This document shows positions 22,193 to 31,864 of a stretch of DNA of 64,000 bases, piece after piece. The notes below the pieces were generated by a model that searched no databases, was not told where the DNA came from, and saw only the letters and a program-made list of their open reading frames with translations. This DNA is from Myxococcales bacterium (GTDB lineage Bacteria > Myxococcota_A > Polyangia > Polyangiales > Houyiibacteriaceae): assembly GCA_029861865.1 (NCBI GenBank), contig JAOTYL010000001.1:196066-260065 (forward strand), given 5' to 3'. Position 1 is the first letter of the stretch. Every line of letters begins with the position of its first letter. A program made the position numbers and the translations under genes.

Positions 22193-23569
22193 TCACTGAG
22201 GCGCGGGGGCCGCTTCGACCTCGCGCTCCGCCTGAGAGGCGATGTCCTGGGCCATCGCCTGGATGCGGTCCTCCTTGGGGCCTTCGATCATGACGCGCAG
22301 CTTGGGCTCGGTGCCGCTCCAACGGACGAGCACGCGGCCGTTCTTGCCGAGCGCCTTTTCCGCGCGCGCGATCGCGTGGGTGGTCTTGGGGAGCTCCTCG
22401 AGGGGGCGTCGGTCTCGGAGCGTGACGTTGACGAGCACCTGGGGGACCCGTTCCATCACTTGCGATGCGAGCTCCGAGAGGGGACGCCCTTCACGAAGCA
22501 AGATGGCGAGCACCTGCATCGCCGCCACTAGCCCATCGCCCGTCGTTGCATGGTCGAGAAAGATCAAATGCCCCGACTGTTCGCCGCCAAAATTCAGTCC
22601 GCGCTTGCGCATGGCCTCGACGACATAACGATCGCCGACGCTGCATCGCAGCAGCTTTCCGTTGTCGTCTTCGAGCGCGCGTTCCAGGCCGAGGTTGCTC
22701 ATCACGGTCGCAACCAGCGTCCGCCTGCGCAAGCGGTTCGCTCGCAGCATGCGAGTTGCGCACAGGGCCATGATCACGTCTCCGTCGATCCGCTGGCCTT
22801 TTTCGTCGATCATGATGACTCGGTCGGCATCGCCGTCCAGGGCGATGCCGAGGTCTGCATGGCGCCGCCGCACCTCTTTGGCGCAGGTTTCGGGGTGCAA
22901 GGCTCCGACCCGATGGTTGATGTTCTTGCCGTCGGGTTTTACCCCGATCGAGTGGGTCGTGGCGCCCAGCTCGGAGAACACGAGCGGCGCCGTGCGGTAC
23001 GCAGCACCGTGAGCCGCGTCGACGACGATACGAACCCCTTCGAGCGTGAGCTCGCTCGGAAACGAAGCCTTGACGAAAGCCACGTAGCGCCCCGGCGCAT
23101 CATCCAGGCGCTCGGCGCGACCCACTCGCGTCTTCGTAGGGCGGTTCTTGTCCAGCTCGGATCCGAAGATGAGCGCCTCGACCTCCTGCTCGACTTCGTC
23201 GGCGAGCTTGAAGCCGTCTGACCCGAAGATCTTGATCCCGTTGTCTTGGTAGGGGTTGTGCGAAGCGCTGATGACTACGCCGGCATCGGCGCGCATGCTA
23301 GTCGTGAGGTGGGCGATCGCCGGCGTTGGGAGCGGGCCTGAGAGCAGCACCTCGCCACCTTGCGTGCAGATCCCCGAAGCAACGGCTGTCTCGAAGAGGT
23401 AGCCCGAAAGCCTCGTGTCTTTGCCAACGACGATTCGGGGGATGTGTTTCACCCGTTGGCGGGCTTGATAGGCGATCGCGGCGCCGATCCGAAAGGCGAC
23501 TTCGGGAGACATGTCCCCTCGGTTGGCAAGACCACGAATGCCGTCGGTTCCAAAGAGTTTTCGGCTCAT
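22193..23569 (-). CDS. glmM: Phosphoglucosamine mutase
   Basis: Interconverts glucosamine-6-phosphate and glucosamine-1-phosphate for UDP-GlcNAc synthesis. From the ATG at 23569 the protein is 458 residues with FGTDGIRG at 6-13, the phosphoserine loop SASHNP at 101-106 (Ser103), the metal site DGDADR, and GEQSGH for sugar recognition. An upstream in-frame start at 23623 would overlap tamB and is rejected. It is the last gene of the tamA-like/tamB/glmM leftward operon, 7 bp after tamB. Confidence 0.97.
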
Positions 23570-26500: not shown

Positions 26501-28181
26501 CCGCCAACTCAATCGTGTCGACGTCGAGCCGATAGCGACCCTCGCTCGCCTCGACACGCGCTTGGAACTCCGCACGTCGCTCGCCAGGGGCCGCGAATGA
26601 GCCATCGGCTTTGTATCGGTCTGGTCCCCCGGTGACGACCGCCTCTCCCTGCCCGATCGGGTAGCCCGTTACGCGGATCTCCGAGCCCTCGAGCTGCACG
26701 TCGATTTTGGGCTTCTTTGGATCGCCCCAAACGCGGCCCTGGAGGAAGAGCGTTCGGGCCTCGAACGCACCGTACCTGAAATCGTCGAATCGGACCCAGC
26801 CTCGCGTATCGAAATCCCCGGCCATACTGGTTCGAATTTCGAGGTCAAACTTGGCGCCGCCTTTGATTCCGGGTGCCCATTCGACGAAGTTCGGATCCGC
26901 GCTGACGTTGGGAATTGAACCGCGGGCGTAGATCTCGAAAACGCCGCTGTATTCGAAGTGCCCGCTCAACGAGAGTTGGCCGCCCGCGTACTGGGTCTCG
27001 AGCGACTGAACGTCGACGCCGTCCGGACGCGACCGAGCCTTGGCGACGAAGGCCGGGATCTGGATGTCTTCATAGCGAAAACCGTTGGTTTCGATTTCGA
27101 CTCCGATGATGCCCTCTTGTTTGGGATCGGCCGAGAGCTTGAGCACTCCGTTCGCGTCGACGTTGGGTGCGCCATTGATCATCTCCGAGAGCCGCAAGCT
27201 GTTGGATTCGATCTCGATCTTCGTGACTCCCTCGTCGGGAAGGTCTCCTTTGATGCGCGTGCGTCCACCTGCGGTCATCAGGTCGGCCTGCAGGCGGTAG
27301 TCGTTTTCCGAGCCCCACAGGCGGACCCAGCCGTTCGCATTCCCCTTCAAAGACTCCGCCCAGTCGAAGCCGACGTCTCGAAGGGTTTCTGTGCTCACCG
27401 GGTCAACCCGAACATAAAGGTCGAGGTCGAACGGGTCGTCGTAGGTGCCGCCGGACGGCGGGCGATACACCACTTCAGCGACCATGTGCTCCGCGCCTCG
27501 GCTGGTTTCGGCGAGCACTTGGGTGCCCCGCATGTCGGTGTAGACGGTACCGACGACGTTGTTGATCTGCCCCTCGAAGGGGAACGGGCTCACGATTCGG
27601 CCGTCGCCGGACCAAATTTCGATCTCGGTTATCTCGTAGAACTCCATTCGGCCGCGTGCGTTCAGGTCGATGATGCGGAGCCCCTGGAGGCCGAGGATCT
27701 CGCCAAACACCTCGATGTTCTTGAGGTCCATGTCGTCCACGATGGCGTGGAAGGGCTCCCCCTCCGAAGGCGTGGTGTCTGCTGGTTCGAAGGCATCGAG
27801 GAAAGTGGGCGAGCCTTCGCCGTTGTCGATTAAACGCACCCATCCGTTCGTGAGGTCTGCGTAGTAGAAGCGTAGCTTGCCGCGCAGTCCGGCGATGGGG
27901 TCGATGCCGAGCTCGATGTGTTCGCCATAGATGATGGGAGTCCCATTGGGGTCGAACACGAAAGCGTCTTTCACGATCGTTTTCCAAAGGCGGAGCTGGG
28001 TGATGTAGCCCGCCTGCAGACGACCCTGCATCTCGCCCGTGACGAACTCATTCAAGATGTCTCGGGCGAGTCGATGGCCCAAATTGGTGTCCAGATGGAA
28101 CAGAACGCTCGCGATCAACGAGAACACCGCAAGGGCCGGCCAACCGAGAAACCAACTCACCAATCGGGAAATCCAGCGCAT
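23577..28181 (-). CDS. tamB: TamB-like translocation and assembly module protein
   Basis: A 1534-residue AsmA/TamB-type protein: an N-terminal inner-membrane anchor ([21 protein letters not shown] truncated view, residues 7-27), a very long beta-rich periplasmic body of alternating strands, and the conserved C-terminal DUF490/TamB domain ([19 protein letters not shown], followed by [20 protein letters not shown]). TamB proteins bridge the envelope and work with TamA in outer-membrane protein assembly or lipid transport. It begins at the last base of the TamA-like gene (28181), which fits a two-gene module. Confidence 0.93.
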
Positions 28182-30325
28182 CAGAACGCCTCGCCGATCG
28201 TGAACTGAATAGCCCCTGGCACCCCGCCGCGAATGAAGCGGAAGATGTTGAACGCGTTCGGCGGCGGCGGCTCACCGACGATCTGCCACTGCGGGATGAG
28301 GAAACCGAAATCGAGACGAATCGGCCCCACTGGAGTTTGGTAACGGAAACCAAAACCGGCGGCAGCGCGGATGTAATTGAATCGGTAAGCCTTGCCTCGA
28401 TTGACGTCGCCGAAGTCCATGAAGAACGCCGTCGCGAAGTTCTGCGTAATGGGAAGACGCCATTCGACGCTCGCCTCCCATCGACGAAGGCCTCCGTCGT
28501 TTCGCGCATCGTTGCCCTCCTCGGTCAGGGAGTCGATGCTGGCTGGGTCGCCCAAGAAGCCGGGGAAAAACCCACGGTGGCTGGTTGGGCCACCCGAACG
28601 CAGGCGGTAGCTCTGGGGTCCGAGCTGTTGACCGATCAAGTCGAGTCGCTGGCTGTCTCTCGAGAATAGAAACATTGCGCCGATGCCGAACTTGAAGGCT
28701 AGAGTGGAGGACAACGGAAGCGGAAGGTAGCCGCGGACCTCGGGCGTGACGCGTACGTATTGCCACGAGCGTTTGAGCTTGGCCGGTGACTGCTGACTTC
28801 CCACCTGGAAGAAGAACCCCGACCGGGGGCTTCGTGAGTCGTCGCGCAAGTCTACCACGATACGCTCATCGAAGAACGCGACCTGATAGCTCGTCGGGAA
28901 CCGAGGATCTTGGTCGACCACTAGATACGCGTCGTAGTTCAAACCTCCTGCCACCAGCAGTCGCCCATCGAAAAACGGACGGGAGAGCTGACCGGACACT
29001 TGAATATCGTGCCGCCGAAAAAGCTCGTAGGGGTCCGGCCCCCAGTCGTGACGAAAGCGAATGGCCGACGTGGTCCGAGCCTCGATGAAAGCTGGCCGTT
29101 GGTACGAGATCCGGACCTCGTTGCCGAGGATGAATCCCCGTCCGAACCGGAAGAACGGATCGGTGGCCACGATTTTGGGGCGGTCCTCGATGCGCAAGTT
29201 GCGAAAGCCATCGATGAAATTGCGGTGCTCGAACCGGCCGAGCAAGTGGACGTCCGAAATGCGGGTATCCTGCTCGAGAGTGAGGGTCGAGATGGTGCCG
29301 CTTTGGACGCCTGCGCCGATTCCCCAGCGGATCTGTCTTCCTGGCTCGACGGCGATGTTGATGTCGACGATGCCCGTGCAGACCTGATTTTCGTCGACTC
29401 TAGCCGTGTCGACGACGTTCACCGACGCCAAGGCTCCAAGAGCATAGACTGCGCGTTGCGCGTCGGCGAGCTTCAGCCGGCTGTAGGCTTGGCCTCGCTT
29501 CAAGTTGGCAACGGCCAGGATCGTTTTGGCGGGCAGGTCCTGGTTGCCGGTCACGACGATGTTGCCAATCTTGCAAGATGGGCCGCTCTCGACACTGAAC
29601 TGGACGAAAGCCTCGCGCGCGTCTCGGTGGATTTCGACCCGTCCCCAGGCGCGGCCGCACGCGTAACTGGCATCCTGGAGCTGACGCCGGATCTCGCGTT
29701 TGCTTCGCTCATAGAGCGCTTCGTCGAAAGGTTTGCCGATCTCGAGCGCGATGGCTTCGTCGATCTTGCTGCGGTTCTCCGCGCTCCACCCTTCGTAGCC
29801 CAGGATATCGATCGAGCGCACCAGCACCGGCAGTCCTTCCTCGACCTCGATTCCGATCTCTAGCTCGCATCCCTCGCCGTCACCTTCTCTCTCGCATGGG
29901 GCGTCCCCGTCGGGTTCGACAATGATGCGGTCGGAGGTCGCGGCCGAAGGTGGGTCGAGCTCGGTGCTGACGACTGCAGCGTCGTAGTAGCCGCGTGCCT
30001 TGTACCAGCGTTCAATCCTGTCTAGGTCGCGTTCGAAAACTGCCGAATCGAGCGTCGGCCATCCCTTACGAAGCTTCCTCCAGAGGTCGAACGACGCCCG
30101 CTTCCCGTCGAACGGCGGGACCCCACACTCGCGATCGACGCTGGTCCCGAACGCGATGGTCACCCGATCGCGTGGATGGCTGGCCAAGCAAGCTTGAAGA
30201 GCCTCAGGATCGAGATCTTCCATGCCGCTGAAACGAATCTTGTCGATGCCGTAGCTATCTTCTGGAATCGTCTTGCAGCCGCTCGCCAGTACGAGCAGTA
30301 GGCAGATGCATCGCTGGCGAGCCAT
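28181..30325 (-). CDS. tamA: TamA/BamA-like outer-membrane protein with lipoprotein signal
   Basis: A 714-residue Omp85-superfamily protein: POTRA-like domains (about residues 25-340, including LVRSIDILGYEGWSAENRSK and KIGNIVVTGNQDLPAKTIL) and a C-terminal 16-strand barrel region (AGFGFRYQTPVGPIRLDFGF near the end). The N-terminus CLLLVLASGCKTI is a lipoprotein signal with the acylated cysteine at residue 17. Canonical TamA and BamA have ordinary signal peptides; a lipidated TamA (TamL) is known from Bacteroidetes. The tamB partner follows immediately. Confidence 0.9.
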   Translation of the reverse strand: MARQRCICLLLVLASGCKTIPEDSYGIDKIRFSGMEDLDPEALQACLASHPRDRVTIAFGTSVDRECGVPPFDGKRASFDLWRKLRKGWPTLDSAVFERDLDRIERWYKARGYYDAAVVSTELDPPSAATSDRIIVEPDGDAPCEREGDGEGCELEIGIEVEEGLPVLVRSIDILGYEGWSAENRSKIDEAIALEIGKPFDEALYERSKREIRRQLQDASYACGRAWGRVEIHRDAREAFVQFSVESGPSCKIGNIVVTGNQDLPAKTILAVANLKRGQAYSRLKLADAQRAVYALGALASVNVVDTARVDENQVCTGIVDINIAVEPGRQIRWGIGAGVQSGTISTLTLEQDTRISDVHLLGRFEHRNFIDGFRNLRIEDRPKIVATDPFFRFGRGFILGNEVRISYQRPAFIEARTTSAIRFRHDWGPDPYELFRRHDIQVSGQLSRPFFDGRLLVAGGLNYDAYLVVDQDPRFPTSYQVAFFDERIVVDLRDDSRSPRSGFFFQVGSQQSPAKLKRSWQYVRVTPEVRGYLPLPLSSTLAFKFGIGAMFLFSRDSQRLDLIGQQLGPQSYRLRSGGPTSHRGFFPGFLGDPASIDSLTEEGNDARNDGGLRRWEASVEWRLPITQNFATAFFMDFGDVNRGKAYRFNYIRAAAGFGFRYQTPVGPIRLDFGFLIPQWQIVGEPPPPNAFNIFRFIRGGVPGAIQFTIGEAF

Positions 30326-30433: not shown

Positions 30434-31864
30434 ATGAAGCAGTACTTCGTCCAGACCTTCGGTTGCCAGATGAATGTCCACGATTCGCGCCGGATCGAGG
30501 AGGTGCTGCATGCCCATGGGTACCGTGAGGCCAGCGAGCCTGCCCTGGCCGATCTTCTGTTGGTCAATACATGCAGCGTCCGCGACAAAGCGGAGCACAA
30601 GCTGATGAGCCTCCTCGGGACGTTTCGGCCTTTCAAGGATGCCCGCCGCGGCACGGTGCTGGCCGTCGCCGGCTGTGTTGCCCAACAAGAAGGGGAGCGA
30701 CTCCTCAAAAAGGCGCCGTTCGTCGACATCGTGCTAGGGCCGGACAACATCCCGGAGCTGCCGGCCCTCATCCGGGAGGCGGAGCAAGGTGCGCCCCCGA
30801 TCACCCGCACCGTGTTCGACATGGACCACCCGCAGTTCCTTCGGGCCAAGCCTCGCGAGGATCGTCGAGAGGTCACCGCGTATGTGACGGTCATGAAAGG
30901 CTGTGACGAGCGCTGCACATTTTGTATCGTTCCTCATACGCGCGGCTCCGAGCGTTATCGCCCCGCGGACGAGATCGTCGAGGAGATCGTCGACTTGGTC
31001 GCTGAGGGGGTGCGGGAGATCACCCTGCTTGGGCAGACCGTGAACTCGTGGCACGAGCCAGGGCTTCGAGCACAGGCGAAGCCGGCTTCCAAGCTTGCTC
31101 CGTCGACCTCCGACTTCGCGGCGTTGCTGCGTCGGATCGCGCGCGAGGTCCCCGGCCTCCTCAGGCTCCGCTATACGTCACCCCATCCTCGGCATGTCAC
31201 CCCGGAGCTCGTCGCCGCACATGCCGAGCTTGCCGTGCTTCCGGCCCACGTCCACCTGCCTGTGCAGTCCGGTTCCGATCGAGTTCTCAAACGGATGGCC
31301 CGCCGCTACACGGCTCGCGACTACATCGAGCGAACGCGCGCGCTAAGAGAAGCCAAGCCTGGGCTTACCCTGTCGTCGGACTTCATCGTCGGCTTTCCCG
31401 GGGAAACGGACGACGACTTCGAGCGGACCCTCGAGCTCGTGCAGGAGGTCGGATTCGTCTCCGCATTCGGTTTCAAGTATTCGCCGCGCCCATACACCCC
31501 CGCGCTTCAGCTCGGGCATGAAGTGCCGGAGCCCGTCAAAGATGAGCGGCTCGCACGGCTGTTTGCAGTCGTCGGGACCCAGCAGCGCGCGCATTTGGAG
31601 TCTTTGGTCGGAACCGATCAACGGGTGCTGGTCGAGGGGCGGTCGCCAGGCGATTCGGGGCGCTTCGCCGGGCGCACCGCTCGAAACGAGATCGTGCACT
31701 TCGTGGCTCCCAAGGGGTACGACCCGACCGGTGAGCTCGTGGCCGTGACCATCGACGCGCCGTTTCGGCACAGCCTCTCTGGATTCATGACCGGGGCCGG
31801 GCACCTGGCGCCGTCGGGGCCACGCACGCGCCTTTCGGTGCTCGACGCTGGAGGTCCGGTCTGA
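30434..31864 (+). CDS. miaB: tRNA-2-methylthio-N6-dimethylallyladenosine synthase
   Basis: Radical-SAM methylthiotransferase acting at A37 of tRNAs. The 476-residue protein has the N-terminal UPF0004 domain with its three cluster cysteines (TFGCQMN, NTCSVRDKAE, AGCVAQQ), the radical-SAM CDERCTFC motif in GCDERCTFCIVPHTRG, and a C-terminal TRAM domain. ATG 30434 is chosen because homologues begin KxYFVQTFGCQMN. It is divergent from the tamA-like gene, and vanZ is directly downstream. Confidence 0.95.
   Translation: MKQYFVQTFGCQMNVHDSRRIEEVLHAHGYREASEPALADLLLVNTCSVRDKAEHKLMSLLGTFRPFKDARRGTVLAVAGCVAQQEGERLLKKAPFVDIVLGPDNIPELPALIREAEQGAPPITRTVFDMDHPQFLRAKPREDRREVTAYVTVMKGCDERCTFCIVPHTRGSERYRPADEIVEEIVDLVAEGVREITLLGQTVNSWHEPGLRAQAKPASKLAPSTSDFAALLRRIAREVPGLLRLRYTSPHPRHVTPELVAAHAELAVLPAHVHLPVQSGSDRVLKRMARRYTARDYIERTRALREAKPGLTLSSDFIVGFPGETDDDFERTLELVQEVGFVSAFGFKYSPRPYTPALQLGHEVPEPVKDERLARLFAVVGTQQRAHLESLVGTDQRVLVEGRSPGDSGRFAGRTARNEIVHFVAPKGYDPTGELVAVTIDAPFRHSLSGFMTGAGHLAPSGPRTRLSVLDAGGPV

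Follow-up and report, generated by a model that had tools for sequence, protein, structure and literature searches.

A predicted lipid-anchored TamA-like Omp85 protein of the Myxococcota, and relatives in which a fused domain occupies the position of the lipid

Heinz and Lithgow reported in 2014 that lipidated Omp85 proteins occur throughout Bacteroidetes and Chlorobi (PMC4104836), and Heinz et al. named these proteins TamL in 2015 (PMC4494059); according to these papers and PMC12045153, TamL is a three-POTRA Omp85 protein of Bacteroidota and Chlorobiota that has an N-terminal lipobox and accompanies TamB. No mutant of the TamL lipidation site could be made in Flavobacterium johnsoniae, so the lipid seems essential, and the authors state that its role, in outer-membrane localization or in activity, is unknown (PMC12045153). 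The TamA protein of E. coli is not a lipoprotein (PMC12045153). Extra Omp85 copies have also been described in myxobacteria, as BamA paralogue groups 1–3, in a section that mentions neither lipid signals nor fused barrels (PMC4104836). Here, we describe an Omp85 gene from a Myxococcales bacterium (contig JAOTYL010000001.1, positions 196,066 to 260,065; this whole stretch of 64,000 nucleotides is referred to as the window) that is predicted to encode a lipid-anchored TamA-like protein. In common with TamL it combines a lipobox with TamB; in contrast, it comes from another phylum, scores below the TamL cut-off, shares one operon with tamB and has some relatives that would carry a barrel in the lipid's stead. 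One of the three BamA paralogue groups is perhaps this subfamily, as an unconfirmed candidate. Among the matches listed by our literature searches, which covered titles and abstracts and few subscription papers, there was no report of a lipidated Omp85 or TamA protein outside Bacteroidota and Chlorobi, and no title or abstract on a phylum-wide lipid signal in deltaproteobacteria or Myxococcota or on barrel fusions to Omp85.

The N-terminal lipid signal and its reach

The 714-residue Omp85 protein opens with MARQRCICLLLVLASGCKTIPEDSYGIDKIRFSG, in which a basic n-region and an uncharged h-region are followed by A-S-G-C; the resulting lipobox is a good one, with Cys17 (the first residue of CKT) directly after the predicted signal peptide, MARQRCICLLLVLASG. 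The preliminary description of this DNA had proposed acylation of Cys17 from the lipobox match, and had pointed to another start codon, or to loss of the cysteine in relatives, as what would overturn the proposal. Both points were borne out in its favor. An in-frame stop codon lies immediately 5' of the ATG and codons 1 to 30 contain no alternative start, which leaves this ATG as the only start that retains the homologous N-terminus, and the cysteine is conserved, both within the genus (Cys17 in 14 of the 14 loci translated from the N-terminus, L004–L017, the window included; two further same-genus matches, found in G014 and G017 and extending to the N-terminus, are left out of this count) and far beyond it.

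Relatives were drawn from 57 genomes, 144 genomes of the class, 140 of the phylum and 10 of family f3, sets that overlap and from which matches were partly sampled. The 179 family candidates left 175 readable members once two loci with an N-terminus cut by a contig end (L018, L061) and two of another Omp85 type (L078, L079) were removed; three BamA loci (L077, L199, L200) and repeated loci had been removed before the count. Across these members, which represent 104 genera and 41 families, a lipobox follows a hydrophobic stretch in 159 (147 by rule, 12 by eye), while the remaining 16 comprise eight with an ordinary signal peptide and eight with a fused domain; by genus, 91 have the lipid only, 8 an ordinary signal and 5 a fused domain. 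The rule is a hydrophobicity-based pattern; many plain lipoboxes escape a strict PROSITE-like rule when it is used on its own. Three of the lipoboxes assigned by eye (L150, L160, L202) nevertheless satisfy the strict rule, the others being L049, L056, L117, L129, L134, L138, L142, L193 and L197. For the 147 rule-positive members, a start codon is in reach in 140 and a basic residue in 146, and the residue before the cysteine is Gly (110), Ala (29) or Ser (8), a small residue there being demanded by the rule itself. Applied as a control to 30 BamA proteins of the phylum, the same rule gave one hit (L216), with the estimated start wrong, and the protein therefore unusable, in at least three of the 30 (L212, L224, L232). 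That the cysteine is incidental and the protein is cut by signal peptidase I would accord with the eight members that have no such cysteine and carry ordinary signal peptides, but is made highly improbable by conservation in 159 of 175 members, with a small residue before the cysteine in the 147 rule-positive ones (within the rule's own requirement).

The history of the signal was traced in a tree of 124 rows (LG+C20, quick search, support from the Shimodaira–Hasegawa-like approximate likelihood ratio test, SH-aLRT), which includes BamA and E. coli TamA and no TamL sequence, and from which L068, L070, L071, L075 and near-copies including L201 were left out; 89 rows are lipid rows, 11 of them by-eye cases. 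Seven ordinary-signal proteins (L169, L173, L177, L178, L182, L191 and L192, from families f41, f45, f49 and f53) form a clade (support 100) that adjoins the lipid clade (support 99). L175, the eighth such protein, is nested inside the lipid clade. These positions suggest a single gain or loss of the lipid near the base and one further loss at a later point; the tree, which has no sure root, fits either gain or loss for the first event. Separately, two lipidated Omp85 genes of the subfamily (L121 and L123) lie adjacent in divergent orientation at G130:C17:198244-202206.

Fused domains at the position of the cysteine

In eight members (L032, L085, L201, L203, L204, L206, L207 and L208), the reading frame continues upstream of POTRA 1 without a stop, and the residue at the cysteine position is not Cys. 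The seven proteins with the upstream end present (that of L201 is lost at a contig end) begin with an ordinary signal peptide followed by about 180 to 290 residues, and the added domain ends directly before the conserved POTRA 1 motif, P..RYGV or similar, which is the position of the lipid. Fusions were found in seven of the nine family f3 genomes with a match (10 were searched) and in one genome of family f1 (L032), and tamB adjoins seven of the eight fusion genes, the contig of the eighth (L208) ending within the gene. The domains are of three types, with no similarity between types by hhalign (probability at most 1.1 %).

The type 1 domain (L085, L201, L206 and L207, four genomes) resembles stand-alone proteins of about 300 residues and has matches in 25 of the 57 genomes, including 15 of the 19 genomes that belong to the window's genus. 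All eight stand-alone homologues read have a C-terminal Phe (WGLRIGGGAAF and similar); the fused copy runs on from there into the POTRA. A terminal Phe is the typical last residue of outer-membrane barrels. The window's own genome also has a stand-alone type 1 relative, at G000:C2:82986-83861. The type 2 domain (L203, L204 and L208, three genomes) resembles the N-terminal 200 residues of larger proteins, with matches in 13 of the 57 genomes (G043 itself counted). Asp-rich repeats follow this region in all 13 homologues read (L255–L265, L267 and L268), 12 of which have, by eye, what we take to be an OmpA-type end, and a Pfam search with one of them (L256) returned OmpA at 87.6 bits together with TSP3_bac. 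As judged from these matches, type 2 is the N-terminal domain, a predicted barrel, of TSP3-repeat proteins of the OmpA family; in those proteins the repeats and the OmpA domain follow it, whereas in the fusions POTRAs and a second barrel follow. The type 3 domain (L032, one genome) has matches in 32 of the 57 genomes (G027 itself counted); all nine homologues read stop within three residues of the domain end, four of them in GF.

The fused domains thus match outer-membrane proteins, and a barrel fold is the probable one for them. It is the comparison of protein ends that carries this claim. Pfam searches gave no family for six fused N-terminal domains at E up to 1, nor for one type 1 stand-alone homologue and one type 3 homologue piece at E up to 0.1, and the type 1 profile found only chance-level matches in the PDB. 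A home-made amphipathic-strand score lends the fold weak support, placing the fused domains at z 1.9 to 3.2, five E. coli barrels at 0.6 to 2.4 and seven soluble proteins (cysQ among them) at −0.5 to 1.0, with POTRA regions also at 1.6 to 2.4.

In the tree, three separate branches of the lipid clade carry the fusions: L032 lies beside the lipidated L020 (support 100), L085, L206 and L207 lie together (100), and L203, L204 and L208 group with the lipidated L202 (99). An assembly error is unlikely for types 1 and 2, which occur in four and three genomes, respectively, G043 being a single contig; type 3 rests on one draft genome, the only one of its genus among those searched. Taken across the phylum, the predicted lipid signal is more than a local oddity, and in several lineages a putative fused β-barrel replaces the lipid, both of which go beyond the preliminary description.

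Family identity and pairing with TamB

A family profile built from 23 relatives (A1) aligns with E. coli TamA (NP_418641.1) over residues 25–560, that is, over three POTRAs and the barrel, whereas against BamA the alignment starts only at residue 176 and does not span the five POTRAs characteristic of that protein. With TamA the family therefore shares three POTRAs, the Omp85 barrel and the pairing with tamB; in place of the ordinary signal peptide of TamA (cleaved by signal peptidase I) there is the lipobox with Cys17, and with TamL it shares the lipoprotein signal as defined by the pattern rule. All 23 members match the NCBIfam models for BamA, TamA and TamL, and the window protein lies below the curated cut-off of each: 121.5 bits for BamA (TIGR03303, cut-off 297.15), 82.3 for TamA (NF047950, 625) and 48.7 for TamL (NF052279, 400). 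The tree places the family in one group separate from BamA (support 99). Its sequence makes the window gene that of a predicted lipid-anchored TamA-like protein which, by the models, is neither TamL nor strict TamA. Acquisition of a true TamL from Bacteroidota would account for the joint presence of a lipobox and TamB, as in TamL, but is very unlikely given the large shortfall on the TamL model, whose cut-off was reached by none of the phylum's 131 genomes and by one of the two control genomes (either Caulobacter vibrioides or Bacteroides ihuae). The window genome has three Omp85 matches: besides the gene described here, that at C6:681068 is BamA, above the TIGR03303 cut-off, and the third (L003, G000:C23:3180-3800) lies in a 581-codon open frame, with no POTRA found by Pfam on the matched piece.

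The operon of this gene with a large tamB and glmM, also noted in the preliminary description, was upheld by Pfam and NCBIfam matches (Table 1). The omp85 stop and the tamB start overlap in TGATG, and glmM then lies downstream of tamB; the gene order tamA-tamB is likewise found in E. coli, where the two genes share 4 bases. In tblastn searches with the window TamB, a match was present near the gene in all 15 loci L019–L033 and in 19 of the 20 regions L041–L060 (34 of 35 together), and glmM follows tamB beyond the window's genus in L044, L049, L053, L057, L061 and L064. The relatives are labeled Myxococcales, Polyangiaceae or Deltaproteobacteria, in line with the earlier suggestion of a lipidated Omp85 protein beside TamB in a deltaproteobacterium.

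Table 1. Positions, in the window, of the Omp85 gene, its predicted parts and the adjacent genes
Feature	Coordinates	Strand	Basis or remark
Lipidated (predicted) TamA-like Omp85 gene, 714 aa from ATG	28181..30325	(-)	Reading frame, Pfam, NCBIfam, profile alignment
Predicted signal peptide, residues 1-16 (MARQRCICLLLVLASG)	30278..30325	(-)	Sequence pattern
Cys17 codon, predicted lipidation site	30275..30277	(-)	Residue +2 is Lys18
Barrel-proximal POTRA, residues 252-329	29339..29572	(-)	Pfam PF07244, 66.5 bits
Omp85 barrel, portion matched by PF01103, residues 486-713	28187..28870	(-)	78.8 bits
tamB, 1534 aa, N-terminal hydrophobic segment	23577..28181	(-)	PF04357, 121.7 bits; ATG overlaps omp85 stop
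glmM	22193..23569	(-)	TIGR01455, 572.5 bits (cut-off 447.55)
miaB, divergent neighbor (context only)	30434..31864	(+)	Pfam, NCBIfam

Several observations weigh against the assignment as a lipidated, TamB-paired TamA-like family. The BamA model outscores the TamA model for the window protein, E. coli TamA joins the family group on a very long branch that leaves its exact place unsure, and AlphaFold models of the window protein and six close relatives reached a mean predicted local distance difference test score of only 27.3. A tamB gene does not stand beside every member: in a third set of 20 regions, one that includes more remote members as well as other kinds of Omp85 protein, tblastn gave a TamB match in 10 (Pfam adds TamB in six more), and in L065 tamB is divergent from omp85. 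The eight members with ordinary signal peptides belong here also, as do the genomes without a match at the E 1e-40 threshold, 64 of 144 for the class and 60 of 140 for the phylum, which are unaccounted for. The first of these points, together with the description of three myxobacterial BamA groups (PMC4104836), would favor a duplicated BamA from those groups that inserts outer-membrane proteins with the β-barrel assembly machinery and has tamB as a neighbor, not a partner. We consider this unlikely, as the profile spans three POTRAs only, the tree sets the group apart from BamA, the codons overlap with tamB in the window, tamB is nearby in nearly all of the loci of the first two sets, and BamA proper is encoded elsewhere in the genome.

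The number of TamB proteins also varies. Several genomes of the order (G022, G025, G026, G028, G031 and others) have three or more TamB matches, with one omp85-then-tamB pair as in the window and another tamB upstream of a second lipidated Omp85 gene; in G026, G033, G041 and G053, the third tamB adjoins a larger Omp85 gene. Within the window's genus, none of the 19 genomes has more than one TamB match, and one of them (G001, 92 % complete) has none and matches the window Omp85 only weakly (E 5.6e-5), by a gap or a loss.

Membrane side of the lipid and proposed arrangement

To our knowledge, β-barrels sit only in the outer membrane, and their termini are on its periplasmic side, which places the start of any POTRA behind a barrel at the periplasmic face of that membrane. 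The interchange of putative barrel domains and lipid at one and the same position makes it most likely that the lipid, too, fixes the N-terminus, and so pins POTRA 1, at the outer membrane. The residue after the cysteine calls for caution here: position +2 is Lys in all 14 proteins of the window's genus, and +2 Lys is found in 8 of 12 inner-membrane lipoproteins of M. xanthus (PMC3222651), a pattern that would fit a lipid remaining in the inner membrane and a protein stapling both membranes through its POTRA arm; for Bacteroidetes lipoproteins, Heinz and Lithgow left either membrane open (PMC4104836). However, +2 Lys added to FibA did not retain that protein in the inner membrane (PMC3222651). 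The +2 residue is, moreover, not conserved in the family, where 71 of the 147 rule-positive members have Ala and 18 have Lys, with 14 of the 18 from the window's genus and only 4 among the 133 others. With outer-membrane barrel domains also predicted at the lipid's place in eight relatives, an inner-membrane lipid appears quite unlikely.

Attachment at the outer membrane leads to the arrangement that we regard as probable overall. The precursor would be of type II (lipoprotein) and be acylated at Cys17, and the POTRA arm, held at both ends, would form a loop or arch between lipid and barrel, on which TamB, from the inner membrane, would dock and deliver outer-membrane protein or phospholipid substrates. 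TamB is proposed as the partner because of the coupled operon and the precedents of E. coli and F. johnsoniae (PMC12045153); its contact with the arm, like the side of the lipid and the substrate, is put forward from sequence comparison. With somewhat less assurance, we favor the more general proposal that in the TamA-type proteins of this phylum POTRA 1 has to be nailed to the outer membrane, and that the nail is interchangeable: lipid would be the default, and a complete, unrelated barrel would have been captured at this very position in three lineages, so that the POTRAs of a two-barrel Omp85 would form an arch from one barrel to the other.

On these findings, lipidated Omp85 proteins would no longer be confined to Bacteroidetes and Chlorobi, and barrel-POTRA-barrel would be an added domain architecture, one that did not turn up among the matches listed by our literature searches. 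A second phylum with the lipid as the rule and with barrel stand-ins would make the question posed by the TamL lipid testable, by swaps of the N-terminus. If the interchange is real, it would be a natural experiment that reveals the role of the lipid in lipidated TamA and TamL proteins.

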